Source of the DNA: Buxus sempervirens
Taxonomy: Eukaryota > Streptophyta > Magnoliopsida > Buxales > Buxaceae
NCBI GenBank assembly: GCA_947561395.2
Contig: OX387190.1
Location: 17,044,858-17,108,857 of the forward strand
Length of the DNA: 64,000 nucleotides
Direction of reading: 5' to 3'
Shown piece by piece: positions 3,816 through 52,662 of this stretch (the first letter of the stretch is position 1; the number at the start of each line of letters is the position of its first letter). The position numbers were made by a program, and so were the translations under genes. Under the pieces are notes generated by a model, which made no database searches, was not told the DNA's origin, and saw nothing but the letters and a program-made list of their open reading frames with translations.

Positions 3816-3984
3816 TTTCTCTTTTTGTGGGACCTGTTGGAAGCCCTAGAATATTCCAAAAATTCAATTCAAAAAAAAAAAAAGCAAAAAAAAAAGAATG
3901 AGCAAATAAAGAAAAAAATCCAAACTCGTGTTCACCCAGCTAGTACATAGGCATTCCTAGGCATGTGAATGAGATTAATTGGGC

Positions 3985-26575: not shown

Positions 26576-28725
26576 TTTCAATACCTCATTTTTGCACCAT
26601 AAAATCGCCCAAGAAGCATATCTTAAACCGGAATATATGTGGGCACGTAAATCAAGGTTTTTATAGTGGACCCATCTTTTTGAAATAACAAGCTCATAAT
26701 AAAGAGAATTCTGAGCTGATTCCGATGCACCAAACTATGCTCAAATTGGATCTCAAACAACTAAGTTATGGATAAAAGAAGTAAAGGGTAGTTCGGGGAT
26801 TTTTATAAAACTAGAATTGGGTGCCACATGGCAGACACGTGTAAGCCATGGTGGTTACCATGTAACCAATGATAAATTAAAAATTCTAGGGTTCTTTTCG
26901 TAAATAAGTAAGTTTCTTAGTGGGGTTTGTTATGCAAATAAATAAAAATTTAATAACAAAGTTAATAAAATTTTTAAAATTAAAAGAAAATAAAAAAAAT
27001 ATAAACAAAGAGAAATGAGTTGGACGAATTGGTCCAACAAATATTCTTTTGAGATATTGAGACTAAGCTTAAAAAAAATATAAGCCTAATAAAAATATGG
27101 GACAAAATAGACTTCGACTAAACCTAAATGAATGATGGTATTTAAGAGAGGAAGAGGAAGAGTTAGGGGTTTAGGTGTTTAAGAGAGGAAGAGGAGGAGT
27201 TAGGGGTTTAAGAGAAGAAGATGAGGAGTTAGGAGTTTAAGAGAGGAAGAGGAGGAGTTAGAGGTTTAGGAGGGGAAGAGGAAATGTTAGAGGTTAAGAA
27301 GTTGAAGGGGTGGGAATTCTCTATAAAAAGACTTGAAGTTGGGAGCAAAAGGAGGAGGATCTAAAGAAGAGAGTTCTTAAGAAAAAGCAAAGAGGGAAGT
27401 GAGAAAAAGAGGTAGAAGGAGGTTGTGTAAGAGAAAGGAGGGAACATCTGGAGTTGAGCACATCAGTTTCCGGGAAATCGACTCCATACCCGGTTTTTTC
27501 ATTATTTTGTTTATTGATTCTTTAATCAAATATTTTTTTAGGTTGTTAAATTGTCAAATGAAAATAATAAAAAGCATGTCACTGTTATGGCCGAATATGA
27601 ATTTTTCAATGTTGTTAAATTGACAAATGAAAGTATACAAAGCATGTCTCTTATCCGACCGAATCTGTTGAACGAATGGATATGTGGGTTGAATTTTGAG
27701 AATTTGATAAACTAGGGTGCCTAATTTGTTATTCTAAAAAGTTAAATGATTTAAAAAGAACTTATTTTATTTCCTGTTTTAATCCTTCTTTAAAACCGTT
27801 TAATAACTCTAGTTTTCATTTGTTATTTCTTTTATTTCTTTCATGTTATTTCTTTAATTTTTTTTTCTTAATTTCCTTTTAGATAATATACTTAACTAAC
27901 ATGCTTAATTTTTCTTAATTTCTTAATTATTTTTAGATAATATGCTTAATTAACATACTTAATTATAATAATCAGATTTTTTATTCTTTTCTTAATTTTT
28001 TAAATAATATACCTAACATATTTTTTTTCTTAATTATTTTTTAGATCATATGCTTAAACATTTGTCACTTTTATAACACTTCTCCTTGCCTCCAAATCCT
28101 TGGAAATAAGAGTAAAAAAAATATGGAAAATAAAGTGTAATTTTCAATGACCAAATATGATTGAGTTTTTTTTACCCATGCTTTGTGTAAATAAATTATC
28201 ATAAGAAAAAAAAAAGGAAACAACATAAGAAAACAGTAAAAAAAAATAAAAGATTAAATGATGTGGCTAGGTTAAATAAAAAATAATAATAAAAATAAAT
28301 AAATAATTTTTTTTTAAATAACCAAGTACATTGCCCTATGTTGAAATATTTGATTTAGATTTCTTTATTTTGGATTTTTTATATATGTATTATATTTTGT
28401 ATAGGATGTAGCATAGCAATCTCCTTTCCTCCAATGTTTGTACACATGTGATCATAAAAAAATAAATTAAAAATATATAAAAGATAAAAGATTAAATAAT
28501 TAAATAATAGTAAATCAGCCCAAATATTATCCAACTAATTTAAGGGAATCCACTTCGGTGGGGCAACCCAGGGTGTTCAAGGACTTCCCAGGGTTGTAAT
28601 CAGGTCACTTATTCGGAATCACTGGTGCAGACCGAAAATCAACAAGGTGTCTACCTGCACCATTTTAGGTAGTGGCGACTCCATAAAACATGTAACACAC
28701 TTTTTCAGCACGCTCGAGGTGCGCA
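26576..28725 (+). repeat. 5' LTR of element C
   Basis: Begins TTTCAATACCTCATTTTTGC, a decayed form of TGTCATCACCCCACCTTTGC seen in the 3' LTR. Ends GAGGTGCGCA. It contains purine-rich GAGAGGAAGAGGAGGAGTTA repeats at 27140-27290 just before TATAAAAA at 27322-27329, then AT-rich sequence. It preserves the uninterrupted site (CCACA at 26824-26828) where element E sits in the 3' LTR. Confidence 0.92.
27140..27290 (+). repeat. Purine-rich tandem repeats before the TATA box of LTR C
   Basis: About five units of roughly 30 bases, TTTAAGAGAGGAAGAGGAGG plus AGTTAGGGG; the 3' LTR has a similar array at 50238-50395 with an extra unit arrangement. Confidence 0.85.
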
Positions 28726-28730
28726 TAGCT

Positions 28731-28748
28731 TGGTGACTCTACTGGGGA
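28731..28748 (+). other. Primer-binding site of element C
   Basis: TGGTGACTCTACTGGGGA, five bases after the LTR end, differing from element A's PBS at two positions. The differences are presumably mutations of the same tRNA match. Confidence 0.8.
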
Positions 28749-30434
28749 TCGAACCCAGAATCTCTGGTTTGATCGAACCCGGAATCGCTGGGGGCTGACC
28801 CAACCCGGTTTGATTAGTTGGAGTATAACAGGCTTATTCTTTGCACATGTGCACACATTTGCACATGAACGCACACTCTATTTGTACATATGCACACATT
28901 TGCACAAATTGGTCAAGGAAGATTTGCCGCCTTACTTAGTAAGTGTTGAATATACGCAAAAACATATTCTAGGGAGTTCTATCATAAAGGACGAGATAAT
29001 TGCCTAAGGAAATTGGATTTTAAGTGGGACCACTGTGACCTCTCCAATTACCTAGGAACTTTCTCGGAACATCATTTTGTGTACTAATTCATCACTTTAC
29101 TATATGAGGCAGTGAAAATTCCTTCCCATACATACATGTGCACTCACACACACTGTGGTTTGTTTACATGCTTTGATATAAATTGCGTGGGGTGACACAC
29201 ACAAGGGAGCCCGCGTGGGTGATCCGATTGAATGATATGGTATTTCTTCTTTACCAAAACCTAGATCTTTCTAGCAGCCACCCTTCTTTATCGTATAAGC
29301 AAATTTTGGGATGGTATTAGCCTCACGCTCCTGTGGCTTACCGGGGAAAGCAGGGTAAACCCATCTCCCCAGGTTTCTGGATTCCTATAGCGCCACTGGT
29401 TTCTTGCCGTGGTACGCGAGGGTCTAGTACTTGGCTTAGACCCTTATGGGCAAATGTCTCAGGCTGGGTATCCTTCCCCACGCATTACTTCTGGATAAAC
29501 CACGATTTTGTGAATGTGCTTAAATGATAGAAATAAGAAGAATAAAATCAATTTAAAACCCAAGAGTCCATCAGGGGCAATAACTCCCATCTTTTTGCAT
29601 CAAACTGAGTAAACCCTAGATCATGGGCTACCTCAGCCCTAATTTAGGAAGCCAACCAAACTTTGATCAAGGGGCCGCCCCAAATCCATGCATAGAGTCC
29701 TGTGAGCCGTGGGCCTCGACCCATTGAGTCCACTGGAAGCACCCTGAGTCCAAATCGGCCTTTTTGAGCAGATGAAAGCCTGCTAGATCAAACAAACAGA
29801 TGAAAGCGAGCCAGAACAAAACAGGGGCCCAAAACCCTAGATCTAGGAATTCAGCTCATCTACCTTTGAAGTAATTTGTACCCTTCTTTTGGGCTCCCAA
29901 CAGCCCTAAAGATGGATTCTTTGCAGATTTTTGTAAATAACATGTAATTTTTGCCCTCGATGGCAAGATGTAAGTTTTTTCTAAGGTTCGACGCCAAGAG
30001 CAGACAAAAGAACAGATGAAAAACAAAGGCTGATTAGGACTTGGACGTGCTTCCTTACACAAGTACGATTCATATATTTCACATTAAGAGTACCACTCAG
30101 AACGCTGCACTCGCAGTGAGAGATGACTGCAATGAATTCTTCTGAGACTCCAACTCCATCACAGCAAAGGGCCGAAGAGCAGCCAATCATAATAGATCTA
30201 AGCCAACAAGTGGCCATGTTGCATGCCACGGGGATTTGAATGCCGGAAATCCAGCAGGGGCAACCACCTCAGCTAGCACCCATGGCAACACATCCACCAC
30301 CACAGGACACTCCATTCCCACACCCGGCAACGGTTCCCATCCATCCTCCACAACAAGAACCATTTGTGCCTATCCGACTAGGGCAGGAACAGCAAAACTG
30401 AAATAGGGCACAGGAGGCCCAGCTTGAGGAAGTT
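28749..30434 (+). other. Leader of element C
   Basis: No coding motif recognised. It starts with a 24-base near-duplication around GATCGAACCC, then a GCACACATTTGCACAT-type repeat patch (28840-28910). A proline-rich frame just before 30435 (PQLAPMATHPPPPQDTPF in the same frame) suggests gag begins upstream of its first listed Met, after a stop near 30403. Confidence 0.5.
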
Positions 30435-31505
30435 TTGGCAGCAATAAAGGAAGACAATGAGGCCCGAATGGCCGCAATGAAAAAAGACCTCTTGAAGCAA
30501 CTCCAGCCCAACCCGGTGCAGGATGAAACCACTCTAGAGAGCCTATGTTTCTTCCTAGATATCAAATTGCCAGCAAATTTCCGATGTCCTGAATTGCATA
30601 GTTTCGACGGCACTGGTTGTCCCTTGATACACCTGTGCTCTTATGTTGGTGACATGTGCCAATACGCGAAGGATGAGAAAATTATGGTTCAGTTCTTCAA
30701 GAGATCTCTTACTAGGGCAGCATACTCTTGGTTTCTAAGTCTGGACAAGGAGAGGGTTAAGACGTGGAACGACCTCGCCGCCGTGTTCACCCTACAATAC
30801 CATTTAAATAGCTAAATGGTTCAAACCAGAACAGAATTGCAGAGGTTGTCAAAGAGGAATAGCGAGTCTGTGAGAGACTACACCAAAAGGTGGATGGAGC
30901 TAGCCAATGTGGTACAACCCACTCTTCTTGAATAAGAGCGGACTTCTTTGTTCATATCATGACTAGGGCAACCCTACTTCACAATGATGTTGGGACAGTG
31001 CGCTATAAGCTTCACTGACCTAATCATGGCAGTAGATAGAATTGAGGATGCCATTAAAATGGAGAAGCTCGAAGGCTCCATGATGAACTTGTTGCATGGA
31101 ACAATCTCAAGTGGTAAGGAGCAAGAGAATGACAACGGTACAAGTACAACCTTCCATGCCATTTCGCATCCCTTCCTCAAGAAGCATGAGCCTTCCCCCC
31201 ACAAGCAAGATTGCATCTCAACTTAGGAGGCGTCACACCAAGGAGGAAAGAAAGAACCGGGAGTTCACTCTACTTCCATATACGCTGGCTAAATTGTTAC
31301 CAACGCTCTTGAGAGAGGGACACCTGCAATTGGCAACGCCAAATCCCAAGGCATAAAAAATGAAGGGCTATGATCCAAACAAAAGATGTGAGTACCACAT
31401 GGGTGCACAAGGCCATGATACTGATGGATGTTGGGGCCTTCGGCATGCAGTCGAAGACCTCCTTAAAGCTGGGGAACTAAAAAAAATTGATCCTCCACCA
31501 AATTG
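30246..31505 (+). pseudogene. gag: Gag unit 1 of element C, several stops and a frameshift
   Basis: Same architecture as the gag of element A: proline-rich start, a K/E/M-rich helix (KEDNEARMAAMKKDLLKQ), Gag core with LPANFRCPELHSFDGTGCP, FFKRSLTRAAYSWFLSLD and WNDLAAVFTLQY, then KRWMELANVVQP, FTDLIMAVDRIEDAI and, after a frameshift near 31200, REFTLLPYTLAKLLPTLL and the knuckle-like CEYHMGAQGHDTDGC with AVEDLL. Stops include those near 30403, 30815 and 30935. It is more decayed than element A's gag. The exact start is uncertain. A purine tract follows. Confidence 0.87.
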
Positions 31506-32433: not shown

Positions 32434-33109
32434 AGGCATGATGGTGATCTCGGGATAAATCTGGCCAATCCATGGAAATTGACAGAACCCTCAGACTGGG
32501 GCAAGACACCGAACCTGAGAGAAGGAACCAATTGAGAGAAAAACCATTCCACAACCCTCAGACAAGGGTGGGGAAAGAAAGAACAAGAGAGGAAGGCAAA
32601 AGAGCTGGGCGAAGGGCAATGCCAAAGAAACCCCCTTGACCAAAACAATTCCCCTCATTTCAACCCGGGGCATGCTATTGAAGGCGAAAAATGTTGAGAC
32701 CCTCGCAGGGAGTGCCAGGAGGCACCACTTCATAAGTATAAATGAGATTGTTGGGTGACTTACCCAAAGATTACTAGTCTTGTCGTGGACCCACTTCGAA
32801 GAAGAAACTCCAAACTCTTAATGAATTCCCAAGAGATTTTAATCAAAGAGAAATTACATGAATTTACATGTAATTTTGATAATAAACAGATGAAGTCCAA
32901 TTGACTGAACTCCATATGAACTTTTGCAGGTATTGACAAAACTTGAAACAGACAGACAAAGCCACCACAGCGCATCTCACATGTTGAGTGCGAGACAGAA
33001 TCGTCGCAATGTAGTCACACATTGGATGCAGAAGAAATCCATCACAGTGTACTCACACATCGGATGCAAGACAAAGATATCCTCAGCACATCTCACGTGT
33101 CGGACAGAG
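32434..33109 (+). other. Non-coding region of element C
   Basis: Contains the recurring CTGGGGCA and CCGGGGCATGC words (32495 and 32666) and a near-duplicate TCACATGTTGAGTGCGAGACA / TCACACATCGGATGCAAGACA motif at 32978-33072. No coding domain seen. Confidence 0.5.
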
Positions 33110-34080
33110 ATTGAAGGAGCAAGGTGTCTCCCAACCATAAGGAACAAGATACCTCCCAAAATTGAAGAATTAAGGGGCAAGGTGCCTCCCAAAAAGCAAG
33201 ACATAAGGAGCAAGGCGTCTTCCAAGATAGAAGGAGCAAGGTGCCTTCCTACCCTAAGGAGCAAGATGTCTCCAAAAATTGAAGAATTAAGGAGAAAGGC
33301 GTCTTCCAACCACAGAGAGTAAGGCGTTTCTCAAGACTGAAAGGGCAAGGCGTCCCTGGAGCAAGGCGACTCCAAAATTAAGGAACAAGACGTCTCCCAA
33401 CCACAGAGAGCAAGGCGTCTCTCAAGACTGAAAGGGCAAGGCGTCCCTGGAGTAAGGCGACTTCGAAATTAAGGAGCAAGGCGTCTCCCAACCACAGAGA
33501 GCAAGATGTCTCTCAAGACTGAAAAGGCAAGGCGTCCTTGGAGCAAGGCGACTCCGAAATTAAGGAGCAAGGCGTCTCCCAACCACAGAGAGCAAGGCGT
33601 CTCTCAAGACTAAAAGGGCAAGGCGTCCCTAGAACAATGCGACTCTGAAACTAATGGAACAAGGCGTCTCCCAACCACAGAGAGGAAGGCGTCTCTCAAG
33701 ACTGAAAGGGTAATGCGTCCCTGGAGCAAAGAGACTCTAAAACAAATGGAACAAGGCGTCTCCCAACCACAGAGAGTAAGGTGTCTCTCAAGATTGAAAG
33801 GGCAAGGCATCCCTGGAACAAGGCGACTCCTAAACTAATGGAGCAAGGTGTCTCCCAAGATTGAAGACCTTCGGAGCAAGGCGTCTCCCACATCTGAATG
33901 ACACGGAAATGTGTCCCTAAGGAGCAAGGCGTCTCCCACATCTGAATGGACACGGAAATGTGTCCCTAAGGAGCAAGGTGTCTCCTACATCTGAATGACA
34001 CAGAAATGTGTCCTTAAGGAGCAAGGTGTCTCCTACATCTGAATGACACAGAAATGTGTCCTTAAGGAGCAAAGAATCTC
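33110..34080 (+). repeat. Higher-order hairpin array with constant loop CAAGGCGT
   Basis: From 33291 to about 33855 a 91-92 bp unit repeats about six times (starts near 33291, 33382, 33473, 33564, 33656, 33748, 33840). Each unit holds four small hairpins with the 8-nt loop CAAGGCGT or CAAGGCGA and different stems: GGAG/CTCC (33473-33488), GAGAG/CTCTC (33406-33423), AGGG/CCCT (33433-33448), GGAG/CTCC. In the third unit AGGG/CCCT has become AAGG/CCTT (33524-33539). Downstream (33898-34064) the pattern changes to GGAGCAAGGYGTCTCC alternating with GACAC/GTGTC around a 6-nt loop (GGAAAT or AGAAAT). Confidence 0.95.
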
Positions 34081-35764
34081 CAAACTGCAAAAAATTTGAG
34101 GCCAAAGCCTCCTGATTGAAGAACAATGAGCAAAGACCTCAAAGGAGCAGAATGTAAAACCCTGGATTTTCTTAAAATAAAGTAAATTAATAAGCCTAAA
34201 TATTGAGAAGTTAAGATTTAATTTAGATATTGGAGGAATAATATTATGATCCAAAGAGATATTAGTAACTAAATAAATAAAAAATAATTTTGAGTAATTA
34301 GGAATTTAAATAGTGGCTTCATTTAAATAGGAAAGAGCAAGGTTGATTTAGAAAAATTGGGAGAGTGATTTAAATATAAAGGATTGAAGAAGATAGGTAT
34401 TAATCCAAGTGCATTATATGGTTAAAATTAATGTGAGGAATAAAGAGGAGAATATTTGGAAAAAGATTCAAAGGTTAAGTATGGAATTACAAGGAAAGGG
34501 TATTTTAGTCATTTTCCAATTAACCAAATTAATATATTGAGTAAGTAAATAATTATTAGACTTGAAATATTTAATTAGACTTAATTTGGGTTAGGTTTGA
34601 ATTTAAATAACAAATTATGGCTTAAAAGTAGGAAAAAGGGTATATTGATGATTATGGTTGATAAGGAGCCTTAAGTTTGAGGATAAGAGGAGTTTTTGGG
34701 TGTTTTAGTAATATTTTAAAATAATAAATTTAATTAGCACGAAAATAAATTAAATTAAGACCTTCTTTTATATGAGATACTTAAAAATGGAATTAGAAAT
34801 AGGATTAAGATAGGGAGGTTTCCAATTAAAAGTGGGAATCCTATTTAGAAGGTCTCCTAAACCTATTAGGACTTCTAATTAAGAGAGCTTATAAAAGGGG
34901 AGGTCTAGGGAAGGTTTATGGTTTTTAACAAATCAAAAATAAGGAAAACAAGAGGGGAATTCGTGCTTGGGCTTGGGCAAAAAACTAAAGGGAAGAAGAG
35001 AGGAGAGAAAAGAAAGGGAAGAAAAGAAAAAGGGAGGTGTTGCAGAGGTCTGACCAGCAGACTTTGAACGACAATCCCCATAGATCCAGTCGTTGGATCG
35101 TCATGAAATTTGGCGGTTATAATCTATACATAAGATACTTTAATATGAACGGTGGAGATTGGATTTGGATGAGTCTAAGGTGGTGTGAACTAACCCAGAA
35201 ATTGGTGGAAAATTAGATTTTGAAAGGAAAAGGAGTTGCAGAGATGGCTGCTTACCAACTTCGAACAAAAAGATAGGACGATCCAACCGTTGTAATGGGC
35301 TGAAATTTTTGATTTTTGTTCTACGCATGGAGGACTTTAAAATGAATGGTGGAGATCTAAATTGGAGAAGTTTAGATGGGTGCGGTCGAGCTCTAAAAGC
35401 GGGCACAGAAGAAGTTCTGAAAAATCTGGGTTCATCAAAAAAGTAAATAGAAAACACTTGAAACTAGAGGAACTGCATGTTTTGTTGTGATTTTGATGTG
35501 TGATCGTATTGGTTTAAGTTGGATTTCATTGGAAAATTTAGATGATTATAAAGTTTTGATTTGGTGATTTAAATCTCTCTTTAAGAATCAAGAAAAGTGT
35601 TGCTCATGGGTAGTTTAATTTAGAAAGAAATCTTAGATAAATTTTAATCACAAAGATTTGATTAGGATTGTCTTAGAAGTAATTTGGATTGAAATTTAGA
35701 TGTTTAGAAACAATTTAAAGCCATCGGAATTTGAGAAGTTTCGGAAATTATGAAAAACCTAGAA

Positions 35765-35950
35765 AAACTGAGTTTTGGGCAGAGCGCTAAAACAGTCGCT
35801 CGAGCACCCTATCTGTATACCTTAAACCAGAACATTGGAAACAAGTCGCTTGATACATCATTCAAGCATAGCCACAGGCAACCTGCCTGTGTATTTAAAA
35901 TAGAACCTGTAATTATAGCCGCTGGAACAGTCGCTCGAGCGCCTCTTCGA
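35765..35950 (+). repeat. GC-rich self-complementary island in LTR D
   Basis: Includes CAGTCGCTCGAGC twice, the 10-bp palindrome CGCTCGAGCG (35934-35943) and a perfect 8-bp hairpin CACAGGCA-ACC-TGCCTGTG (35873-35891). Confidence 0.85.
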
Positions 35951-36589
35951 GTGACCCATGTCAGAAAATCCAGATTTTGGGATTCGTGCCCAAATTTAAT
36001 TTTTAATAATTTTTCTGTAAATTATAAAGTTGTAACACCTGTAACTAGGTTAATTTGAGATGTAGAAAGTGGCGGAATTAAATTTGAATTAAAGAATAGT
36101 AATTTGGGACGATGATTATAAATATGAAACTTTTGGAGATATCTTAAGTAAAAAGAGGTCACAACCAATTTAGATCTGATTTTGGATAACCTAACCTATT
36201 ATTAAATTTCAATATAGACCTAAGATACCTTCTGAAGTACTAAATAATAGAGTTAATACGTTTTGACACCTTGGGTTCTAAATGAGGGAAAGTTGGATGT
36301 TTATAGATAATAGAAATAGAGAAGTTTTAATCAAGAGTTAGGAACATTGTTAATGCCTTGATTTATTTCCTTTTAAACAAAACTTGATTTTGGGAGTTCC
36401 TGCACTTGTATTTGAACTATCTGAGTATGCTTTGAGCTCCGAATGATTTATGTATATACTTGGATTATTTTGCCGTTGAAACTTGGAGTTTGGACATATG
36501 ACTTGGTACATCTTGTGTTGGATTTTGGGTCACAGTTGTGACAAGGCAGGTGCCTGGTTTATTATTTCCATAGGGTGGATTTGGTTATT

Positions 36590-36733
36590 GGTATTTATAT
36601 CCTCAGTCTATGTACTCAGCAGGATACTTCCTCAATCCGTGTACTCGGTGGGAAGATGGTTACTTTTATTTATCCTTAATCCTTGTACTTGGCGGGATGC
36701 TTCCTCAATCCGTGTACTCGGTGAGAAGCTGGT
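36590..36733 (+). repeat. CCGTGTACTCGGTGGGA repeats, left part of array in LTR D
   Basis: Units of about 45-60 bases with TCCTCAATCCGTGTACTCGG, GGGAAGCTGGTTAC and TTTTATTTATCC. The array is cut at 36733 by the nested LTR and resumes at 40054-40280; removing the guest restores AAGCTGGTTACTTTTATTTA, exactly as in intact units. Confidence 0.9.
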
Positions 36734-39700
36734 TGTGCGCACCTGATTTCGGTCGCACGACGAGGCGCATGCAAAACTATGCGTGCCTCGGGATTGTTTG
36801 GAGTCGCCACTACCTGATGGGGTGCAGGCAGACACCTGGGTGCCTAAGTTCTTCTATTAAGGCTTGGTCTGCGGCTTGAGATTCTAAGCAAGTTCTCGGT
36901 TACGGTCCGAGGAAGTCCGTAGACACCCCGGTCCGCCCCGTCGAGTGACGAGTCCCATAGGTTTCCCTGGTTTGAGTCAACTTTGGTCTCTCACTCACCC
37001 AATTCCTATTCCAGCATGCACATTTGGTTAAGTCTAGTGGGACCGCCAAAGTGGTATGGGTCCCTTTACTTGATTTTATCTTTTTAGTTAAAGATGGGAT
37101 GAGTCTGATTGGGCGGGCCTCGTTGGAAGGGCCGCGGATTCCTTGGTGGGCTTGGTTAAGCCCACGTATCCTTTGATGGGCCTCAGTCTAGTCTGGGAAG
37201 CCTTTTGGGCTTGGTTCAAATGAATTGATTTTATTTAATGGTTCGAGTTTGATTAAATTTGATTTCCATGCAAAAAATGAGTCTTGATTGCTTTGTGGGC
37301 CCGTGAGTGGGCCACACAGTGGGTTGCCAAGTGATTTCAGATTATTTTGGTTAACTGTGCCAAAATGGGTCAGGCCTTGGGCTTGGGGCCCTTTACCTGG
37401 GCTTGGGCTTGAAAGCCCAAGTCTTCATGAGTTAGAGTTTGGAAACCCTAAAATTGGTTCGATTTAATGGGCTTTAGCGGGCCCAATCGGCCCTACCCGT
37501 GGTCTCGGCCAAACCATGCCTAAATCTAAGCAACATGCTACTGAAACTAGGCTTGGGTGGGCCTCCAATGGTCCGGCCCACTCAATTAATTTGATTGTCT
37601 TCATTTAGCAAAAATGGATTTGTTGGGCTTGGTGGGCCTCATTGGAAGGCCCACCGGAAATCAATTTGGACCGGGTCGGTCCAAGGCCCACCTTGGGTTT
37701 CCGGGTGACCCGGAAACCCTAATGGTTCGCCCGGGTTGATCAAACAAACCAAAAAAAATAGCACAAGATCAGAAAATGGCAAGAAAAAGCAATCTAGCAG
37801 TGTAGCCGGCCTACGATGCCGGTTACACACAAGTCTCATTATATCCGGCATCTTTTGCCGGCTACAGATACAGCTCCGTTGATCCGACCTGAGTTGCCAG
37901 ATCAACATACAGAAGCTGTTTTTATGATTTTTGCATTGGGGTTGGGTTTCTGGGTCATCTAGGATATTCCAGGGATTGTGTGGGCTCTTGTTTGAGCCCA
38001 CATTGGTTCCGATGAGAGACCCAAGGAGAAGGCTAGGGCTTCAGCTTCTCTTTGCTTTGAACCAGATTTGGTGAAGAAACAGGAACACAAGAGTCCCTGT
38101 TTTGGTCATTCCTTCACTCCAAAAATCCAGAATCAAGGCATATGAGTAAGAGTCAATGACATGGATTCAAAGAGATATGCTTCACTCCAAAAGTATGTGT
38201 GTGTGTGTGAGCTTTTTTGTGCCTAAAAGCTGAAGTAAATACTCATATACAATTTACAAAAATAATGAATGAAAGGAGAAATAGCTAAAGTAATTTCCTA
38301 ATGCATGGTCATGTAATCTTATACATGAGGAAAAAAGGGGGCTGATTTCTCATAGGCAAACAATGACCGATATAAGGTAAAAATATGGTGAGGCAAGAAT
38401 GTGCAAGATACTAACAAGAAAACCATTGCTCAATTCATATGCATGTTCCTAGTACTAATAAATGATGAGTGAACTTTATATATGCTTAAAATAGTAGTTA
38501 AACCATGCACAAGCAAACTAAATAAAGAATATGAAATTCAACATGCATCCCATATAAGTTTATAGCATATTTATATTAATCTATCTAGCTTAAGAAAAGC
38601 ATTTAAAGAAAGGGTAAAGGGGGGTTACACAAGGGATACAAAAGATGAAAAAGCCAAGAGGGAACATGCTCCCCCATTAGAAACAAAGAAGGAACAGCAC
38701 AATATTTGCATAAAACAGTGGCCATGAACACTTTAAACCAAGCTTAAGACCTCTCATCCTCTCCTTAATCTGACCAAACCTTCATTTTTACCTTTGAGTG
38801 TTAACCACTCTTAGAAAACCATGAAAAGAGAGCGAGGAGCAGGGAAAAGCATGCACACATACTCATAACAGAAACCTCATAACATGATTAACATCCTTCA
38901 TGCTTCAAATGAGTTAATATTCATATATGTGAAAGAAAATGACCTAAAGGAACTCACCTTGGGTTTCAAACCCTTGGGGAATGGGTATTAAGCCTCCTTG
39001 GAGTACGAGTGGCTGCTGGAGCAGCCCTTATGCAGCACCTCCTTCACTCCAAAAAATCTCCTAGGCCTCCTCCTTGAGCAAAAATGGGAGAAGAAGAGAG
39101 TGGGAAAGGTTTAGAAGGCTTGAGAGGAGGTTTTGGGTGCTTGGGAAAAATGGGAGAGAGGATGGAGCTCTTGGAGAAGAAAAATGGTGGGAGAAAAAGT
39201 GTGCTCCACCAAAATGTGCTCAACCCCTAATGCATCCCACCCCCTCCCCTTTTATAGGAGGGGTTGCTTAAGGGTTAAGAAAGACCAATTTTTAAATATT
39301 TTTATCAAAAGTGACTTTTTTATTGTTATTTCTTATTTGTGACTTATTGCTCTTACTTAATGGTTAAAAAAGACTCTTTTGCTAATATTTTTTACTTAAG
39401 GGTTAAGAAAGACTCTTTTTGTTAATATTTTTGTTTACTTAAAGGTTAAGAAAGGGGGACGTCCACGTGGCACAGTTTGCTACGTGGACAGTTTATTTTT
39501 GACCAAGGATTGCCCATAACTCTCTCATTTGAGCTCCGATTCTGGCAAACTCAGTTGCGTTGGAACCGGGTCGACATCCTCTATCCACTGAGCTAGAGTT
39601 TAGCAGCAAATTCGGGGTTTAGCAGAAAGTCAACTTTCAGCTCCTCAAGTTTGACCGCCCGCAGAACCTTCATCTGGACTTCGATTCCAGCAAACTCAGT

Positions 39701-40048
39701 TGCGTTGGAACCGTGTCGGGAGTCTCTATCTACTGAGATAAAGCAAGGTGGCCAACTATCACCTGATCAAAAAGTCAACTTTTTGTCCCTTCGGGGTTTG
39801 ACTTTTTGCCAGGGTTTTCATTTTTAGTACTTCCAGGGGTGCAAAAATAAGGTGCTTACACCCCGATCTGAGCAAACTCAGTTGCGTTAGAATCATGTCA
39901 GAATTTCCTAATCATTGGGAAGAAGTATGGCGGGGAATTTGCACCCGATCAAAATGTCAATTTTTGCCCCTTAGGGTTTTGAGCTATTTTGTTATCTTTT
40001 AGCACATTTTCTCTTTTATTTGGTTTGATCAAAATTTGGGTGCTTACA
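36734..40048 (-). mobile_element. Tat-type LTR nested in LTR D (TSD CTGGT), with duplicated LTR start
   Basis: Starts TGTGCGCACC and ends GGTGCTTACA, flanked by CTGGT (36729-36733 and 40049-40053). On the minus strand it is a relative of the solo LTR at 21034-23905. The LTR-start word TGTAAGCACC occurs twice on the minus strand: at the outer end (40048) and again 188 bases in (ending at plus position 39860). The outer 188 bases resemble the LTR start at 60122 more than the one at 21034. It also has TATAAAAG (39249-39256, minus), a donor-like AAG|GTGAGT (near 38957, minus) and CCGGC hairpins at 37798-37915. Confidence 0.9.
37798..37915 (-). repeat. CCGGC hairpins with 7-nt loops in the nested Tat LTR
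   Basis: On the plus strand: GTGTAGCCGGC/GCCGGTTACAC with loop CTACGAT, TATCCGGC/GCCGGCTA with loop ATCTTTT, and GTTGATCC...GATCAAC with loop CTGAGTT. All three keep the 7-nt spacing seen in the copy at 21034-23905, while arm sequences differ. Confidence 0.88.
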
Positions 40049-40053
40049 CTGGT

Positions 40054-40280
40054 TACTTTTATTTATCCTCAGTCTGTGTACTCGGCGGGATACTTCCTCA
40101 ATCCGTGTACTCGGTGGGAAGCTGGTTACTTTTATTTATCCTCAATCCGTGTACTAGGTGAGAAGTTGGTTACTTGTTATTTGGTTTACTTCCTTAGTCC
40201 GTGTACTTGGCGGGAAGTTTGTTGTTTTGTGGCTGGTGCCTTTTATACTCAGTTCGTGTACTCGGTGGGATACTTCCTGG
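40054..40280 (+). repeat. CCGTGTACTCGG repeats, right part of array in LTR D
   Basis: Four to five units continuing the array at 36590-36733, with CCGTGTACTCGG or CCGTGTACTAGG, then GTGGGAAG or GTGAGAAG and GGTTACTT. Confidence 0.88.
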
Positions 40281-40749
40281 TGGTTGTGATTATTTTGTTC
40301 ATTATGTGATGTTATAGGGTGGTATGCTGTTTGCCGTGATTTCTATATTATTGTTTTTTTCTTGTTGATGTTGTTGTTATTTTAATCGTACACCTCATGA
40401 CTTATTTTATATAAACATGGACTGATTTCATGCATACACCTTGCTACTTTTTGAGATTTATTCTCACTCCGGTTTCTCCCATTTTTCAGGTATTCTTGGA
40501 GAGGACGACAGCATTGGGCTAGTATGTAAAAGGGGTAATCAATTTAGTTGTAGATTAGCTTCCGGAGATTAAAAACATTGTAATTGTTAAAGTTTATTTG
40601 TTAATGGATATTAATTCAAGTTTCCACATTTACTTTGATTATAAAGTTAGAAAAAGTTTTAAATTATTCCATATTTTAGTTGCTTTTGTTACTTACCATA
40701 ACACCTTGGGTTTTGGGAGTTGGACCCGGAACCGGGGCGTTACACAGAG

Positions 40750-41466
40750 CATCTCCCAAGACTGAAGGACAGGGTGTCCCTAAGGAACAAGGTGCCTCCG
40801 CAAAGTTAAACAAGATATTCTCATTCCTGAAAATGACAGAGAATCAAGACATGAAGAAGAAGACAAAATGAAGAACTGCTGGGCAAATGACCCCTTTTGT
40901 AATTTTCATTTTCCCACTTTTGTATCATAGGATTTGAACCAGGATTCGAAGCTCTTTGGTGTGCTGGACAGTAGTGACTCTTAAACCCTTTAGAAGCCAA
41001 ATAGAGTTAAGGGGTAGTGTACCTACATGGGGGATAAAGAACTTCAAACTTTAAAAACAAAAAAAACAAAAACAAAAAAAAGAAAAAAAACTTAAAAAAA
41101 GAAAAAAGAAAAAGTGAAAAGATAAAAGAAGAAGTCAAAAGTCAATGGAAAAACAAGTGGAAAAGAACACTATTGAAGCACTTTTGCATCAATGCCGAAA
41201 CAAGTCGGTAAGTCTAAGTCCAACCCATCTTTTTCAATTCAAACTAAAAAAGGGGAACAATTCCAAACGCCCAATGGCAAGGAAATTCCCCAGAACTTAG
41301 AAGTGGGCCAAAGTAACACAGAGCTTGCACCAGCGCTTCCGCATCTTTGAAAACATTAAAGGACCTGGCTCATCGGTTATGTCGACAGAAATGCAAAGTA
41401 CAAAAATAGGGTTCTTTTCATTCTTTGTCATTCATCACCAAAGTGACTCTGACAAAGAGGGGCAGC
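40750..41466 (+). other. 3' internal end of element C with polypurine tract
   Basis: Resumes the GGAACAAGGTGCCTCC hairpin-array wording after LTR D, then an A-rich tract (41058-41140). It ends with ACAAAGAGGGGCAGC at 41452-41466, the polypurine tract directly before the 3' LTR. No coding motif. Confidence 0.7.
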
Positions 41467-41719
41467 TGTCATCACCCCACCTTTGCACCATAAAATCGCC
41501 CAAGAAGCATATCTTAAACCAGCATATATGTGGGCACGTAAATCGAGGTTTTTATAGTGGACCCATCTTTTTGAAATAACAAGCTCATAATAAAGAGAAT
41601 TCTGAGCCGATTCTGATGCACCAAATTGTGCTCAAATCGGATCTAAAACAACTAAGTTATGGATAAAAGAAGTAAAGGGTAGTTTTGGGATTTTTATAAA
41701 ACTAGAATTGGGTGCCACA
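41467..41719 (+). repeat. 3' LTR of element C, left part
   Basis: Starts TGTCATCACCCCACC and follows 26576-26828 closely up to GGGTGCCACA, where element E is inserted. The LTR continues at 49922. Confidence 0.92.
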
Positions 41720-44676
41720 TGTAAAACCCCGAATTTTCACCTAATAAACAAATAACTAAATAATAAATAAAAGAAAATATGAGTTAAGTCCTAGTTAAAA
41801 TAAAAAGTGAGGATTTAGAGGATAATTAATTCGAATAAGTCATAAGTTGTAAATAAAGAAAGAATTTTAATGAAATTAGCCTAAAAGAGTAAAAAGGGTA
41901 TTTTGGTAATTTTCAAAAAAGAGTAATTAATAAATAAATTATTAAATAATAGCTAGAATTTGATAATAGAAGAAAATAATTTATTTAGACAAGTTAGAAA
42001 TTTAAAGAAAGTAATAAAAGCCTAAATGAGGAAAAAGGGTAGTTAGGAGATTTCAAGTCTTAATTGGGAGAAAAGTAATTTAATTTAGGTTTTTGGTAAT
42101 GTTTAGTATTTAAGTGAATGTTATGCACGAAAATAGGTGTAAGGAGGAGTTTAAATAAAAAGAGATTTTATTTGTAATGTTTAAATTGAAAAATAGAAGG
42201 TGGAGAAAAAGTAGGAATTAAATTAGAAGGTGTTAGACTTTAACTAGATCTTGGTTAGGTTAGCCCAAATAAAAGGAGCCTATTAGGGTTGGTTTAGGAC
42301 TTCCAAAGCCTAGTATAAATAGGAGATTAAGGTTAGACAAGAGAGAATTTTCGTGGGTTTCATATTGAGAGAAAAGAGGGAGAGAAAGGAAGAAGGCCGC
42401 TCATGAACATATCTGACCAGCCATCATCAAAACATGATTGGGGAAAATCCGTACGGTTGATCACCTTCAAATATAGAGGTTTTGTTCATGACTGATGGAA
42501 CTACAATATGAACGGTGGAGATTGGAATTGGAGAACTCTAGCGTGGTGCGTTTGGAAGCAAAAGTCAGGTCCAGAATTAGAAGCTTCAATGGAAGAAGGA
42601 TTTTAGCGTATAAGGCAAGTAGTAACTCTTGAAAATTGGAGGAATTGCATGGTTTTGATTTCTGTGATTTATTATGGTTTATTTTGATTAGCCGGAAAGG
42701 ATTTTGCAAGGGATCGTATGGTTTATATTTTAGAGTTTTGTGTTTTTGAAGGATTTGCTAAAGTAATGAATAAATCTTGGTTTGATCATGTAAATATGCA
42801 TGGGATGTTTTTTTAATGGATGCAAATTAATCTAGAGGGCTTTAGATATGATTTAGAATGTTAAGGGACAATTTAGACCAATGGAACTCAAAGCAAAAGC
42901 CTAAAAATCCGAAATTGGAAAATCTGGAAATTTTAACTAAAAATTTGTACGAGCGCCTAGGACCGCCCAGGATCACCTAGACAGCAGAGGTAGGCGCTCT
43001 ATGCAGTAAATTCAGATTTATGGTATGTTTCTAATCCAAATAAATTTCTAATAATTTTTCTAGTATGTTAACTATTCCAACATCTTTATAAAGGCCTAAT
43101 TGAAGTATGGAAATTATAAAAATTAAATTTGATAAACATCCAAATAATTAAAGTCTTAATGGTAGGATAGTGTATGAAAAAGACTAAATGATGGGGAATA
43201 ATGATAGGACAAATACTAACTAGTAATTATGAATTAAAATCATCTTCTAAACTATAATTTAGGTCTGTAGAATATGCGGGAAATTATAAATACAGAAAAT
43301 TGAAATAAATACTATCTTAGGTATTAATATGAGAACTTGGATTATATAATAAGGGGATTTATAAGGAAAACTTTAAGCAAGACTTGAAATACTTTGGTTT
43401 GTGCTTTAAATATGAATATTGATTTTCTGGAAATTACATTAATTCTGATTTCAGTGGAACTTATGTTCAGGAGTTTTATTTGGACTGTGGATTAAATATC
43501 ATGATGGTAATAAGAGATTTGTACCATCTGCGGATGAGATATGAGACCACCTACGGGTGAGATATGTAACTCCTTTGGGAGAGATCTCCTGTTGGGGGAG
43601 ATGTAATCCTGATTGGATTGCATCCCACAGGGGAGATATGTGACCACCTACGGGTGAGATGAGACCTCCTGTTGGGGGAGATGTAATCCTGATTGGATTG
43701 CATCCCACAGGGGAGATATGTGACCACCTGCGGGTGAGATGAGACCTCCTGTTGGGGGAGATGTAATCCTGATTGGATTGCATCCCACAGGGGAGATATG
43801 TGACCTCCTGCGGGGGAGATGTGACCTCTTGTGTGGGAGATGTAATCATGATGTGATTGCATCCTACAAGGGAGATATGTGATTACCACCTGCGGGTGAG
43901 ATGTGTAACTCCTGCGGGAGAGACCTCTTATGGGGGAGATGTAATCACGATGTGATTGCATCCCACAAAGGAGATGTGTGTGTTACCACTGGCGGGTGAG
44001 ATGTGTTAGCTCCTGTGGGAGGAACCTCATGTAGGGGAGATGTGAATACTACGTGTTTGCATCCTACATGGGAGAATGTTACTATCGGATTTGTGAGATG
44101 GACCATTAATTATGAATACATGTTTTATCGTTAATCTTCGGATTTATCTATCAATAACATCTTTTTACTGGTATTTACGAATGATTGCATATCCTATTGC
44201 TTTATTTGGAATTGGCCATGTTGATTTGAATTCATCGCCTTATCGTTGATTAATCGTATACCTCATGACTATTTGCCTAAATGAGACTATTTACTTGCAT
44301 GCACCTACTACTTGCTGATATGTAAATCTCACTCTGTTTTCCCCTATTTTTCAGGTTGCTTGGAGAGATCGCGAAGATTGGGTTTTAATTTGATGGGTAG
44401 AATTATAATTGGTATTAATGGCACATGTTGATTAGGTAAACTTTTTTGTAAACAGAATTGAATATGTTGATTAAAGAATTGTTTTTATTGGCCACCAGAA
44501 CTCTGATGTAATTAATTAGTAAAGTTTAAAATTATTGTGAATCTTAGTTGGTATCTGACCCCAGCTTCGTGGTAACACCTCGAGTTTGGTTGTTGAACCG
44601 GACTTGGGTTGTTACAGTAGCGAACCGGGTTTGGGTTGGTTGCCAGTTTGCACTGACCCGGGTTTGGGGCGTTACA
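41720..44676 (+). repeat. 5' LTR of element E (2957 bp)
   Basis: Starts TGTAAAACCCCGAATTTTC and ends TTTGGGGCGTTACA. TATAAATA at 42314-42321, donor-like GCAA|GTAGTA at 42619, GC island 42950-43010 with the 9-bp inverted repeat GAGCGCCTA/TAGGCGCTC, repeat array 43530-44090, acceptor-like CCCTATTTTTCAG ending at 44354. Confidence 0.93.
43530..44090 (+). repeat. Array of 80-bp hairpin units in the 5' LTR of E
   Basis: Three near-identical 80-bp units (CTCCTGTTGGGGGAGATG starting near 43587, 43667, 43747), then diverged units. The inner hairpin is GATGTAATCC/GGATTGCATC with 5-nt loop TGATT (43600-43624); in diverged units it is GATGTAATCA/TGATTGCATC with loop TGATG (43839-43863). Both stems keep one T-G pair. 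Small flanking hairpins alternate between CACC/GGTG and CTCC/GGAG. Confidence 0.93.
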
Positions 44677-44680
44677 GAGA

Positions 44681-44692
44681 TGGTATCAGAGC
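44681..44692 (+). other. Primer-binding site of element E
   Basis: TGGTATCAGAGC, four bases after the LTR end. This is the well-known PBS complementary to the plant initiator methionine tRNA 3' end, used by many Ty3 chromoviruses and Copia elements. Confidence 0.93.
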
Positions 44693-46889
44693 AACAAGAT
44701 CTAAACCTAGGAAATAAATTCTTAGGTGGGTAGTGGGATTGAGTGCACGTTAGATAAAAGCATGTTATTTAGGATGAGAGACTTTAATTTTATTTGCATG
44801 TTGTGAACACTATGGTCTGATAATATTCTTGTGCTATTGATGTTATTGTTATTATTGGATGCTATATTATTGACCTAATTAAATTGAAAGGTTGCAATAT
44901 TAACCTGTGAGTATAAACAAATAAATTCTTACATAAGAAAAATAAATAGGAAAAAAAATTTGAAGTAGGTAAAAATTTAACAAAAATGATCTGATATATA
45001 TATCTGTAAGATGAACCAGTACAAAGCTTGGTATACAACTGAAAGACTAATAAAAGACCTATAGACTAAATACAATCAAAATAACCAAAAAGTGTATACA
45101 CATTTGTCCCAAAGTGAGAAAGAAACAAATAGAAAATACAAGACTCTAAACAAGAAAGATAAATTCAGCTAGATGGTCCAGCACCGTCTCCTCTATGTCC
45201 AACACCTATCTCCTATGCTAGTGTCCCCATCTCCAGTCCTAGTAGCTCCATCATCATCATCACCATCTCCTCCCTGACCTCGATCACCAGTAGCATCATC
45301 TCCAGCCTCATCATCAGCCTCCCCATCATCTCTAGACAAAGACCAGATACTAGAAGAAAAATAAAGAAAAGAGACAAGAAACCACAAAATAAACAAATAG
45401 AAAGTTAGTAAGTAAGCATGTATATAGTCCTATATAACCAACAAAAATTTAAAGAAATCAAACCAGGGTAAAAAGTGTGTAATAATGGACTAGAAAAGTG
45501 CTAAAACAAGTTTTAAATCGAAATCATTTGAAAGAAATTGAAAAGGGAACAAAATCTACAAAAATAGGCCGAGTGCTCAGGAGCACTCAGGTCGATAAGG
45601 TCGGCGGTTGTGTTTTGCCATAAACAAAAATTGGGATTTTCAAATAAAATGCAACACACGACCAAATCTTCGAGTAAAAACTAGTTCAAATCAACAGTAT
45701 AAGGTATCTAGAAAGTAAAGAAACCATTTTTAAGCAAATGCCCTAAAAATTTGAGCATCAATCGAAATCTTTTTAGAAATCTAGCCCTAGTCGTCAACAA
45801 ACAATGAAAGAACTAAATCTGTGCTACTGTAAAAGATGAGTAGAAGTGGAGAGGCATACATGTGAGTGGCGTTTGTTGGAGGTAGTGATTGAATGAGATT
45901 GAAGAAGACGAACGCCTAGGAGAATAGGGTCAGCGAAGTTGAGCGTTAGCCTTAGGATTGTCTTAAGTGTGCATTTAAGAAAGCGTTATAAAACTAGCGC
46001 TAAGGAGCGCGTGAATTGGGTTTAAACCCCAGTCAGTCAGCGCCCATTTGGCCTGGGTGCTGAGCGCTCAGTCTTCTTTAGGTAGTAATAAAAAAAAATT
46101 TTACTTAGTTAATAGAAACAATAACAACTATATAGCAGACAAAAATCACTTATACTAGTTCGTAAAAATAATGTGTATACATTTGGATGTAGTTAAACTA
46201 TAAAGTAAAATAATTATAACTGAAAACCACTAAAAAATATGAATTATTAGAGATTACAGGAAATTTAAAAATTTTACCTAGAATAATAATCAAAGTTTAT
46301 ATAAGGATTTATTCAGAAATTTTGATCATTGCAACCCAACACTTTTGATCTATATATGCTGTCTCACAGATACCTGATTAGAACTAATTGACATATAAGA
46401 TAATATATTTGATTGTATATTTGTATCTGAGGTTGAATGTATAATTAAATTATTATTGTTGAATATTGTCTGTTGTTCGTTGAGCCAGTTGCATTAGGAC
46501 ATGCCCGAAGTGTGGTGAAGCAGTACGTAATGTGGAACTGTACTTGAGTGTGAATCCTTATGCAATATGGGTTATGTATTAGTACAAATAGGTGTGTGTA
46601 AATATGTATTGTGAATACAGTATTTTAAATACAAGTTAAGCTCGAAGGGATCCGTAATTTTCTTCTCAAGCTTGCATATAAGCGGATGCGTTTATATGTA
46701 CAGATTGACGATACGAAATTTGTAGAATTCTTCTACAGTATTTTTGAAGTTAAACTATTTTTTGAGAAATGGAATTGAAATGAGGAAAACTTTGAATTGT
46801 TTTGAATTGCTGGAATTTTGTTATGAAATATAAAATGAAGATGATTGTTTTTAAATTTCGAGGACGAAATTTTTGTTAGGCGGGTAGGA
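44693..46889 (+). other. Internal region of element E, non-coding
   Basis: No recognisable protein. At 45000-46090 the wording resembles a Tekay-type LTR in reverse orientation: a patch like that after the start of the minus-strand LTRs, a TC/CAT-rich repeat (45180-45330), and GC-rich inverted repeats including GAGTGCTC-AG-GAGCACTC at about 45591-45608 and AGCGC...GCGCT near 46040-46070. A minus-strand frame at 45193-45396 is an acidic low-complexity product of the CAT-rich patch. The last 30 bases form the polypurine-tract signature. Confidence 0.6.
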
Positions 46890-49921: not shown

Positions 49922-49926
49922 CCACA

Positions 49927-51800
49927 TGGCAGCCACATGTACGCCATGGTGGTTGTCATGTAACCAATGATAAATTAAAAATTCTGGGGTTCTTTTAGTA
50001 AATAAGTAAGTTTCCTAATGGGGTTTGTTATGCAAATAAATAAAAAATTGAATAAGAAAGTTAATAAAAGTTTTAAGATTAAAAGAAAATTAAAAAAATA
50101 TAAACAAAGAGAAATCTGTTGAACGAATTGGTCCAACTCATATTCTCTTGAGATATTGAGACTAAGCTTAAGAAAAATATAAGCCTAATAAAAATATGGC
50201 ACAAAATAGACTTTGACCAAACCTAAATAAATGATGGTGTTTAAGAGAGGAAGAGGAAGAGTTAGAGCTTTAGGAGAGGAAGAGGAAGAGTTAGGGGTTT
50301 AGGTATTTAAGAGAGGAAGAGGAGGAGTTAGGGGTTTAAGAGAGGAAGAGGAGGAGTTAGAGGTTTAGGAGAGGAAGAGGAAATGTTAGAGGTTAAGAAG
50401 TTGAAGGGGTGGGAATTATCTATAAAAGGCTTGAAGTTGGGAGCAAAAGGAGGAGGATCTAAAGAAGAAAGTTCTTAAGAAAAAGCAAAGAAGGAAGTGA
50501 GAAAAAGAGGTAGAAGGAGGTTGTGCAAGAGAAAGGGGGGAACATCTGGAATTGAGCACATCAGTTTCCGGGAAATCAACTCCATACCAAGTTTTTTCAT
50601 TATTTTTTTTATTGATTCTTTAATCAAATATTTTTGTATGTTGTTAGATTGTCAAATGAAAATAATACAAAGCATGTCACTATTATGGCCGAATATGAAT
50701 TTTTCAGTGTTGTTAAATTGACAAATGAAAGTATACAAAGCATGTCTCTTATCCGGCCGAATATGTTGAACGAATGGATATGTGGGTTGAATTTTGAGAA
50801 TTTGATAAACTAGGATGCCTAATTTGTTATTCTCAAAAGTTAAAGGATTTAAAAAGAACTTATCTTATTTCATATTTTAGTCCTTCTTTAAAACCCTTTT
50901 AATAACTCTAGTTTTCATTTGTTATTTCCTTAATTTTTTTTCTTAATTTCCTTCTAGATAATATACTTAACTAACATGCTTAATTTTTCTTAATTTCTTA
51001 ATTATTTTTAGATAATATGCTTAATTAACATACTTAATTATAATAATCAAATTTATTATTCTTTTCTTAATTTTTTAAATAATATGCCTAACATATTTTT
51101 TTTTCTTGATTATTTTTTAGATCATATGCTTAAACATTTGTCACTTTTATAACCTCTCCTTGCCTCCAAATCCTTGGAAATAAGAGTAAAAAAAATATGG
51201 AAAATAAAGTGTAATTTTCAATGACCAAATATGATTAAGTTTTTTTACCCATGCTTTGTGTAAATAAATAATCATAAGAAAAAAAAGGAAAAAACATAAG
51301 AAAACAAAAAAAAATAAAAGATTAAATGATGTGGCTAGGTTAAATAAAAAATAAAAATAAAAATAATTAATTAATTAATTAATTTTTAAATAACCAAGTA
51401 CATTGCCCCATGTTGAAATATTTGGTTTAGATTTCTTTATTTTGGATTTTTCATATATGTATTATATTTTGTATAGGATGTAGCATAGCAATCTCCATTC
51501 CTCTAATGTTTGTACACATGTGATCATAAAAAAAATAAATTAAAAATATATAAAAGATAAAAGATAAAATAATTAAATAATAGTAAATCAGCCCAAATAT
51601 TATCCAACTAATTTAAGGGAACCCGCTTCGGTGGGGCAACCCAGGGTGTTCAAGGACTTCCCTGGGTTGTAATCAGGTCACTTATTCGGAATCACTGGTA
51701 TAGACCGAAAATCAACAAGGTGTCTACCTGCACCATTTCAGGTAGTGGCGACTCCATAAAACATGTAACACACTTTTTCAGTACGCCCGAGGGGTGCACA
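49927..51800 (+). repeat. 3' LTR of element C, right part
   Basis: Continues the LTR after element E, matching 26829-28725 along its length with scattered differences and small indels, and ends GGGGTGCACA, followed by the TSD TAGGT. TATAAAAG lies at 50421-50428. Confidence 0.92.
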
Positions 51801-51805
51801 TAGGT

Positions 51806-52662
51806 TTCTAACTTGATACTGGATAAAAAAGTGTCTTTATCAATATTGATAGAAGGTAATGATACTTTTATGAAAATGTGGGCCATAACTCATGGCAAAT
51901 ATCCAAATTATTAGAATCAATTGTAACATGCAACGCACGTTGTCCATACCTAGTATATGTAAATATGGTTAGGGTCTAGTTCAATTCTATGAGATTAGAA
52001 TGGACCTAGCTTTAGATTGGTTACATCATGGTTTGCCCTTGGAACTATATCATAATTAATTCAATAAATTTCTGCTCCTTTAAATTAGGACTATCAAAAT
52101 AGTTAGTCTTCCTATGCTCAAGATTCCTTGAGGAAAGATTGTGAAAGTTGCTTTGAGGTTGGTTGAAATATTAAAAACCTTTTCAGTAAATCTAAAAACT
52201 AAGGCGCATTCCTTACCCTTAAGTGGCATTTCTTAAATTTTGAAATCTTTCAGCTAATGGCCAAACATCATTGTTTATCTTCTTATCAAACCAAATACAC
52301 TATGTGTTGAGCATTTTAATGGTAAGTTGATCTTTTGATTTACAATTGAAATTTATATTACTCCTTTTATGGAACATGTATATTCTTCTGGAAGTTCCCT
52401 TTTTGTCAGCATTTATGTCTCTTATTTAGTGTTTCCATCAATGTTAGGCTTAAGAGAAACTTGTGGTTTCTTATTGGTTGTCAATTCCCCTATAGACTAC
52501 CTTCATTTTGGACCTTTTCAGAACCCTTTGCCAATTCTAAGGTTAATGACCACTTCAGGATATCATTTAAGCGGGAGTGGCCCAGTACTACTCCCGCTTA
52601 AAGATGAAGTTTGTTGACATGAATCTGTATATCCCTCTTATAACCCCATATATTCCCTAACT
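51806..52662. other. Low-copy-looking sequence right of element C
   Basis: No LTR, LINE or known gene recognised. It contains an open frame of 82 codons at 52369-52617 (plus) with no recognisable domain and a perfect 13-bp inverted repeat near its end. It may be the original non-mobile DNA of this locus or an unrecognised element. Confidence 0.5.
52566..52602. repeat. Perfect 13-bp inverted repeat, 11-nt loop
   Basis: Arms TTTAAGCGGGAGT and ACTCCCGCTTAAA around GGCCCAGTACT. It lies 60 bases before the tandem duplication and has no visible relation to a transposon end. Confidence 0.92.

Follow-up and report, generated by a model that had tools for sequence, protein, structure and literature searches.

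In plants, LTR retrotransposons of the Tat lineage commonly have tandem arrays next to the 3' LTR, and these are a source of satellite DNA, according to the available part of PMC7004042. Tat/Ogre elements carry hypervariable tandem repeats in their 3' untranslated region (Macas et al. 2009, Gene 448:198, as cited in PMC7004042). Retand elements have family-specific arrays between POL and the 3' LTR, the origin and function of which are stated as unknown in the available part of PMC11963269, and the accessible sections on soybean Gmr9/GmOgre describe minisatellites between the coding region and the LTR (PMC3305785). As far as the available text of these articles goes, there is no mention of hairpin, palindrome, dyad or secondary structure for the Tat/Ogre repeats (PMC7004042), of hairpin, stem or secondary structure for Retand (PMC11963269), or of hairpin, palindrome, dyad or stem for Gmr9/GmOgre (PMC3305785). 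In the available portions of the literature on Retand, Gmr9/GmOgre and Tat/Ogre arrays we met no arrays of paired-arm modules, and no priority is claimed. If many such arrays were hairpin arrays with paired stem evolution, their function would become directly testable.

In this work we focused on an array, called array B, within a 64,000-nucleotide stretch of the Buxus sempervirens genome (the window). Array B is noncoding and lies in the 3' part of a gag-bearing LTR element, element B (Table 1). This is the position where Tat/Ogre-type elements carry their tandem arrays, between the coding region and the 3' LTR, and the family-specific monomers and the variation of unit number and block content from copy to copy are further likenesses to Tat/Ogre. 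Array B is also family-specific and placed before the 3' LTR as in Retand, and it is a minisatellite array between coding region and LTR as in Gmr9/GmOgre. Unlike the Tat/Ogre repeats, however, its monomer is made up of paired-arm modules that share one loop, and no pol was seen in the scanned pieces, which distinguishes it from Retand as well. We regard array B as a variant among the tandem arrays of Tat/Ogre-type elements, its own membership of the Tat lineage being putative.

Table 1. Features of element B and of its array in the window
Feature	Position	Strand	Basis
5' LTR of the array-bearing element B, approximate ends	26583..28731	+	Direct repeat with 41474-41721 (94%) and 49922-51806 (92%), BLAST
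Putative primer-binding site TGGTGACTCTACTGGGGATCGAACCC	28731..28756	+	Sequence just inside the 5' LTR
gag fragment	30402..30812	+	Weak Pfam PF03732, E 0.022 (below cut-off); likeness to element A gag
Hairpin-module tandem array (array B), main part	33110..34152	+	TRF, loop scan, hairpin scan
91-92 bp units, four hairpins each	33285..33858	+	TRF period 91, 6.3 copies; hairpin list
48-bp units	33873..34072	+	TRF period 48, 4.1 copies; hairpin scan
Nested LTR element inside array B, starting TGTAAAACCC and ending GGGGCGTTACA	34153..40744		Flanks CAGAA/CAGAG; other copies
Array B continuation beyond the nested element	40745..40807	+	Read by eye; alignment to other copies
Purine-rich tract, putative PPT, before the 3' LTR	41454..41466	+	Read by eye; inferred from position
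3' LTR, first part	41467..41721	+	BLAST match from 41474; start 41467 read by eye
3' LTR, remainder, split off by the nested element 41719-49921	49922..51806	+	BLAST

The putative primer-binding site is probably similar to the 3' end of a tRNA-Arg. The gag of element B is 48% identical over 95 amino acids to that of another LTR element in the window, element A (BLASTP, E 8e-37), and a second piece is 48% identical to it over 84 amino acids. The element A gag matches PF03732 at 9.1e-12 as well as seven database proteins, among them one named from Trifolium and one from Theobroma, both plants; no homologue was found with the element B gag piece L060:1-582 as query. Judged by this likeness to element A, the Gag of element B would be of the plant Ty3/gypsy kind. 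No pol domain was detected in the scanned pieces of the internal region. From the end of gag to the stretch before the array the distance is 1.2-1.5 kb in 8 of the 30 fetched loci, those with both sides visible in the alignments, so that a whole pol would not fit there, and two open pieces from two of these 8 loci gave no Pfam match. The window copy is without this stretch of 1.2-1.5 kb (at 32437-32468), which in L060 and L042 holds a lysine-rich open frame. Gag-only non-autonomous LTR elements are known as TR-GAG. Element B may resemble them in its gag and in the short gap between gag and array in those 8 loci, and would differ from them by its hairpin array.

The array had initially been annotated as ending at 34080. 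It runs on in degenerate form to about 34152, is broken there by a nested LTR element, and resumes beyond it up to about 40807. In L042 and L044 position 40745 directly adjoins about 34150, which identifies 34153-40744 as an insertion within the array. Array B ends approximately 650 bp upstream of the 3' LTR, and L042, L044 and L052 show the array, then 40745-41721, then the LTR in this order. There was no Rfam match in 26000-52500 (E up to 0.1).

A scan of positions 33001-34150 found 35 CAAGGCGT-like loops with at most two mismatches. Four pairs adjoin the loop at 28 of these sites (22 with Watson-Crick pairs only, 6 with one G.T), five sites have one mismatch and two are not paired through, all counted by eye from the hairpin list. 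The hairpin array with a near-constant 8-nt loop that the initial annotation described between 33110 and 34080 is thus confirmed, its module consisting of arms of 4-5 bp around the 8-nt loop. Each 91-92 bp unit carries GGAG/CTCC (loop CAAGGYGT), GAGAG/CTCTC, AGGG/CCCT and again GGAG/CTCC (loop CAAGGCGA), which makes three stems among four hairpins and not the four different stems initially proposed. The GACAC/GTGTC hairpins, which were thought to take over further downstream, are indeed present from 33900 on, but in the 48-bp units GACAC-GGAAAT-GTGTC alternates with GGAG-CAAGGCGT-CTCC and does not replace it. The same hairpin may also be read as GACAC(G/A)-GAAA-TGTGTC, with a 6-bp stem and a GAAA tetraloop of the GNRA type if the sixth pair forms; this pair, which closes GAAA, is G.U, or A-U in the AGAAAT variant. 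Both loop variants, GGAAAT and AGAAAT, are also present in other loci.

The survey covered the 676.5-Mb genome, in which the window is G000:C12:17044858-17108857. Allowing up to two mismatches, CAAGGCGTCTCTCAAGACTGA has 803 + 698 occurrences, and its reversed control has 0. Runs of three exact CAAGGCGT loops, spaced by 8-38 unspecified bases, number 328 + 300, and among the matches listed the right arms, read by eye, are CTCC, CTCTC, CCCT and a few variants. The loci used for the counts below were found with a query that contained the right arm of one hairpin, so this arm is favoured in at least one unit per locus. Loci L001-L030 overlap larger loci and were excluded from the counts. L038/L039 (38 kb apart) and L048/L049 (13 kb apart) show the same alignments to the window and are probably local duplications; they were kept in the main counts, and two counts were repeated without L039 and L049. 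Unit number and block content vary between loci, as expected of a hypervariable array, and at C3 24796682-24799738 the array matches are spread over about 3 kb.

The 30 fetched loci and the window yielded 1111 loop candidates, with 554 GGAG/CTCC, 131 AGAG/CTCT and 121 AGGG/CCCT stems, the rest being scattered. The Watson-Crick fractions at the four pairs were 0.906/0.931/0.868/0.879, compared to 0.86/0.64/0.84/0.50 with shuffled right arms. The chance level is high because the left arms are purine-rich and the right arms pyrimidine-rich, and most of the gain over it comes from the two pairs that distinguish the main stem types. The density of hairpins was 31.0 per kb versus 14.4 in dinucleotide shuffles (three per locus). 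Most sampled hairpins are therefore paired, and the mostly unpaired genomic copies that would have spoken against the initial annotation were not found.

To compare stem types, subunits were clustered by their linkers only, and classes were counted if present in at least four loci. Four Watson-Crick pairs were found in 25 of 57 classes, against a mean of 8.4 with permuted right arms (0 of 10,000 permutations reached 25). These 57 classes include anchors other than hairpin loops, and since the permutation partly contrasts true loops with false anchors, we prefer the plainer count of the loop-bearing classes, of which the fixed rule CAAGRNGN retains 29. Among these, 25 are fully paired, as GGAG/CTCC (21), AGGG/CCCT (2), AGAG/CTCT (1) and GAAG/CTTC (1). 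Without the duplicate loci L039 and L049, 22 of 27 loop-bearing classes are paired, and the added miss, GGAG/CTTC, contains a G.U pair. Of the four misses among the 29, AGGA/CCCT and TGAA/TCCC become paired when the register is shifted by one base, giving GGAC/GTCC and GAAC/GTTC. The miss AGGG/CTCC seems to be two adjacent hairpins fused together, and TCCT/AAAG, retained among the misses, is probably a false anchor that overlaps a GGAG-TAAAGCAT-CTCC hairpin.

Most recurrent subunit types thus keep complementary arms through paired differences, in two cases by a register shift. From these class-level counts the stem types differ by approximately three to four paired changes and few unpaired ones, in agreement with the initial annotation, and at the level of types paired substitutions exceed chance, as they do in a covarying structured RNA. 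The genome search also brought up the new stems that had been looked for, GAAG/CTTC in register and the two that lie one base off, but they are few.

Variation per site was measured in 135 units from 29 loci, using a single mismatch threshold across all 97 columns and a reference string taken from loop-anchored units. It amounted to 3.5% in the arms, 6.3% in the loops and 15.0% in the linkers (3.2, 5.3 and 13.3% without CG sites), and no rotation of the class labels (0 of 96) equalled the difference between linkers and modules. When whole units receive the same treatment, modules thus vary less than linkers. With the arms as the least variable class and GGAG/CTCC in 21 of the 29 classes, the data run contrary to the idea that the loop stays fixed while its stems change freely. 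Linker-anchored units did not clearly show arms and loops to vary less than linkers: for h2 the values were 0.124 and 0.092 in the arms, 0.132 in the loop and 0.105 and 0.091 in the linkers, and for h3/h4 they were 0.092-0.118 in the arms, 0.11 in the loops and 0.079 and 0.154 in the linkers. This version is biased to conserved linkers and admitted misaligned subunits, and the loop-anchored first measurement is biased to conserved loops; as the two choices are biased in opposite directions, we rely on the single-threshold measure.

Among individual copies, paired substitutions did not exceed chance. In hairpins with one change per arm relative to the nearest main stem (48 of the 1111 were removed as too distant from all main stems), the changes were at partner positions in 8 of 28 cases versus 6.7 expected from the position rates, or in 8 of 27 versus 6.5 without the duplicate loci. 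Five of the 28 restore a pair. One of them is AAGG/CCTT (33524-33539) in the window, which had been singled out as a double change from AGGG/CCCT (33433-33448). The two sequences are as described, but this is one instance beside many one-sided changes, and we reject it as a compensatory event because it is compatible with chance. G.U was not favoured over A.C in array B (57:47, 63:60 and 85:84 at three thresholds). Alternative Watson-Crick pairs were seen 12 times versus 2.75 under independence at the strictest threshold, about a fourfold excess, and in a separate count 6 of 13 such cells concern one pair of one hairpin type, where an existing stem stands in another's place. This excess consists in good part of swaps among existing stems. 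Recent changes fit neutral decay after insertion and give no support to an ongoing constraint. On the + strand, the three parts of array B fold with z of -1.1, -0.2 and -1.7 against 40 dinucleotide shuffles. Since z is near 0 (-0.2) for the 91-bp units (33285-33860), which fold no better than their shuffles, overall RNA stability was dropped as evidence for array B.

Two more hairpin arrays are present in the window. Array A (2681-3830) is located between the 5' LTR and gag of element A, and the gag pieces found upstream of array B confirm that the latter lies downstream of gag, as annotated. Comparison of the window with itself gave no BLAST match of 90 nt or more between the two arrays, although the gags of both elements are related. 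In the window and four fetched stretches (L061-L064) we counted 139 array A hairpins with the loop GCCTYTGAA, leaving out sites before AGC or GGCC or after G, which are overlapping decoys. Perfect pairing over 7 bp was seen in 119 of them, with four stems (56 TCTGAAA/TTTCAGA, 44 TCTAAAA/TTTTAGA, 16 TCTATAA/TTATAGA and 3 TTTGAAA/TTTCAAA), and 20 were others; a change from an A-T to a T-A pair is present in 16 of the 139. For G.U against A.C the numbers were too few (13 to 7, pairs 1 to 7 summed). The loop pattern has 21,824 + 22,124 overlapping matches in the genome. Array A is a stronger and clearer covarying hairpin array than array B.

Array C, seen in the window alone, occupies both LTRs of the nested element 41719-49921 (43520-44090 and 48690-49320). 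It has CACC/GGTG and CTCC/GGAG stems around TGCG or TACG loops of the UNCG type, and longer stems of 10 bp with paired changes, GATGTAATCC/GGATTGCATC versus GATGTAATCA/TGATTGCATC. Its + strand folds below the shuffles with z of -5.7 and -7.6 for the two LTR copies, which are not independent. Downstream of the 5' LTR of this nested element, on the + strand, lies TGGTATCAGAGC, which we take to be similar to a primer site. Given arrays A and C, chance is a poor account of the hairpin design as such, though not of each array B stem.

Where repeat types of array B have different arms, the difference mostly affects both sides together, an indication of hairpins being kept. Our preferred reading, which taken as a whole we hold only tentatively, is that these are RNA hairpin modules and that their pairing, including at the RNA level, was of importance as long as the element was active. 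The genomic RNA of this gag-bearing LTR retrotransposon would then carry short inverted-repeat modules in its 3' noncoding part, and their pairing may have been relevant in this RNA during the active life of the element. As each hairpin shows the same loop, the array could repeat one weak contact site, RNA-binding or RNA-RNA, many times over. Its position and multiplicity suggest that the most likely use would be recognition by Gag and packaging of the element RNA, the Gag coming from the element itself or from autonomous relatives. Slippage or strand transfer in the course of reverse transcription might multiply the units and so account for the variable copy number, and after insertion the array would decay neutrally, which would account for the uncompensated recent changes. 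Counting against this reading, the paired differences at type level represent only three or four events, and 4 of the 29 loop-bearing classes lack in-register pairing. Kissing of the loops with other parts of the element was also considered and set aside: of the possible partners, CGCCTTG and ACGCCTT are absent from all 31 loci, TCGCCTT is present in 1, and CACCTTG was seen outside the arrays.

The main rival, hard to exclude even if we consider it somewhat unlikely, is template switching in short inverted repeats during replication or reverse transcription, a mechanism described for RNA genes (available part of PMC8794818). It makes and repairs palindromes, so that paired changes would arise in single events without selection on RNA structure, and it easily accounts for the A-T to T-A double change of array A and for the array B stems restored after a register shift. 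The roughly fourfold excess of alternative Watson-Crick pairs is in its favour too, as is the concentration of almost half of the 13 cells at a single pair in a single hairpin type, a pattern suggestive of copying from subunit to subunit. Without selection, however, it predicts loops that diverge like linkers, whereas the loops vary less than half as much in the single-threshold measure, though not in the linker-anchored one, and the same loop is common to types with differing linkers. It should also sometimes flip the loop; the exact flipped form CGCCTTG is absent from all 31 loci, and CACCTTG, the flipped form of CAAGGTG, occurs 24 times in 18 loci, always outside the arrays, which speaks mildly against it. 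If such a copying-error origin were true, the arrays would be a natural record of template switching. An ordinary hypervariable tandem repeat with chance palindromes, its types derived from one 16-nt module and their differences paired by luck, seems unlikely to us. The frequency of 4-bp stems in shuffled sequences, the 50-86% pairing per position of shuffled arms, the absence of a folding-energy excess in array B, the uncompensated recent changes and the single stem common to 21 of 29 classes all agree with it. It has more difficulty with the conservation of modules over linkers in the single-threshold measure, with four in-register stems when only one class that has this loop in register is unpaired (AGGG/CTCC, an apparent fusion of two neighbours), and with the same design being shared by arrays A and C.

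Palindromes acting at the DNA level, as sites for dimeric proteins or as cruciform-prone DNA in the integrated copy or the cDNA, we consider very unlikely. Inverted repeats around a fixed 8-bp centre would suit them, and the equal frequencies of G.U and A.C do not favour RNA. Dimer sites usually keep their half-sites and vary the spacer; in array B, by contrast, the centre recurs while the arms differ between types, and the alternation of GGAAAT and AGAAAT in the 48-bp units, with G.U or A-U closing GAAA, suits a sense-strand RNA. Extending the preferred reading of RNA hairpin modules to all three arrays, multivalent RNA hairpin arrays might arise in plant LTR retrotransposons repeatedly, and each time independently, upstream or downstream of gag or in the LTR, with one loop shown dozens of times on covarying stems. 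These could be packaging or mobilisation tags, also in elements without pol, and a reason for carrying tandem arrays at all; this wider proposal is, in our view, rather doubtful. A further tandem array in the window, at 15887-16412, has units of about 22 bp rich in GGTAC/GTACC, and its minus strand folds with a z of -3.7.
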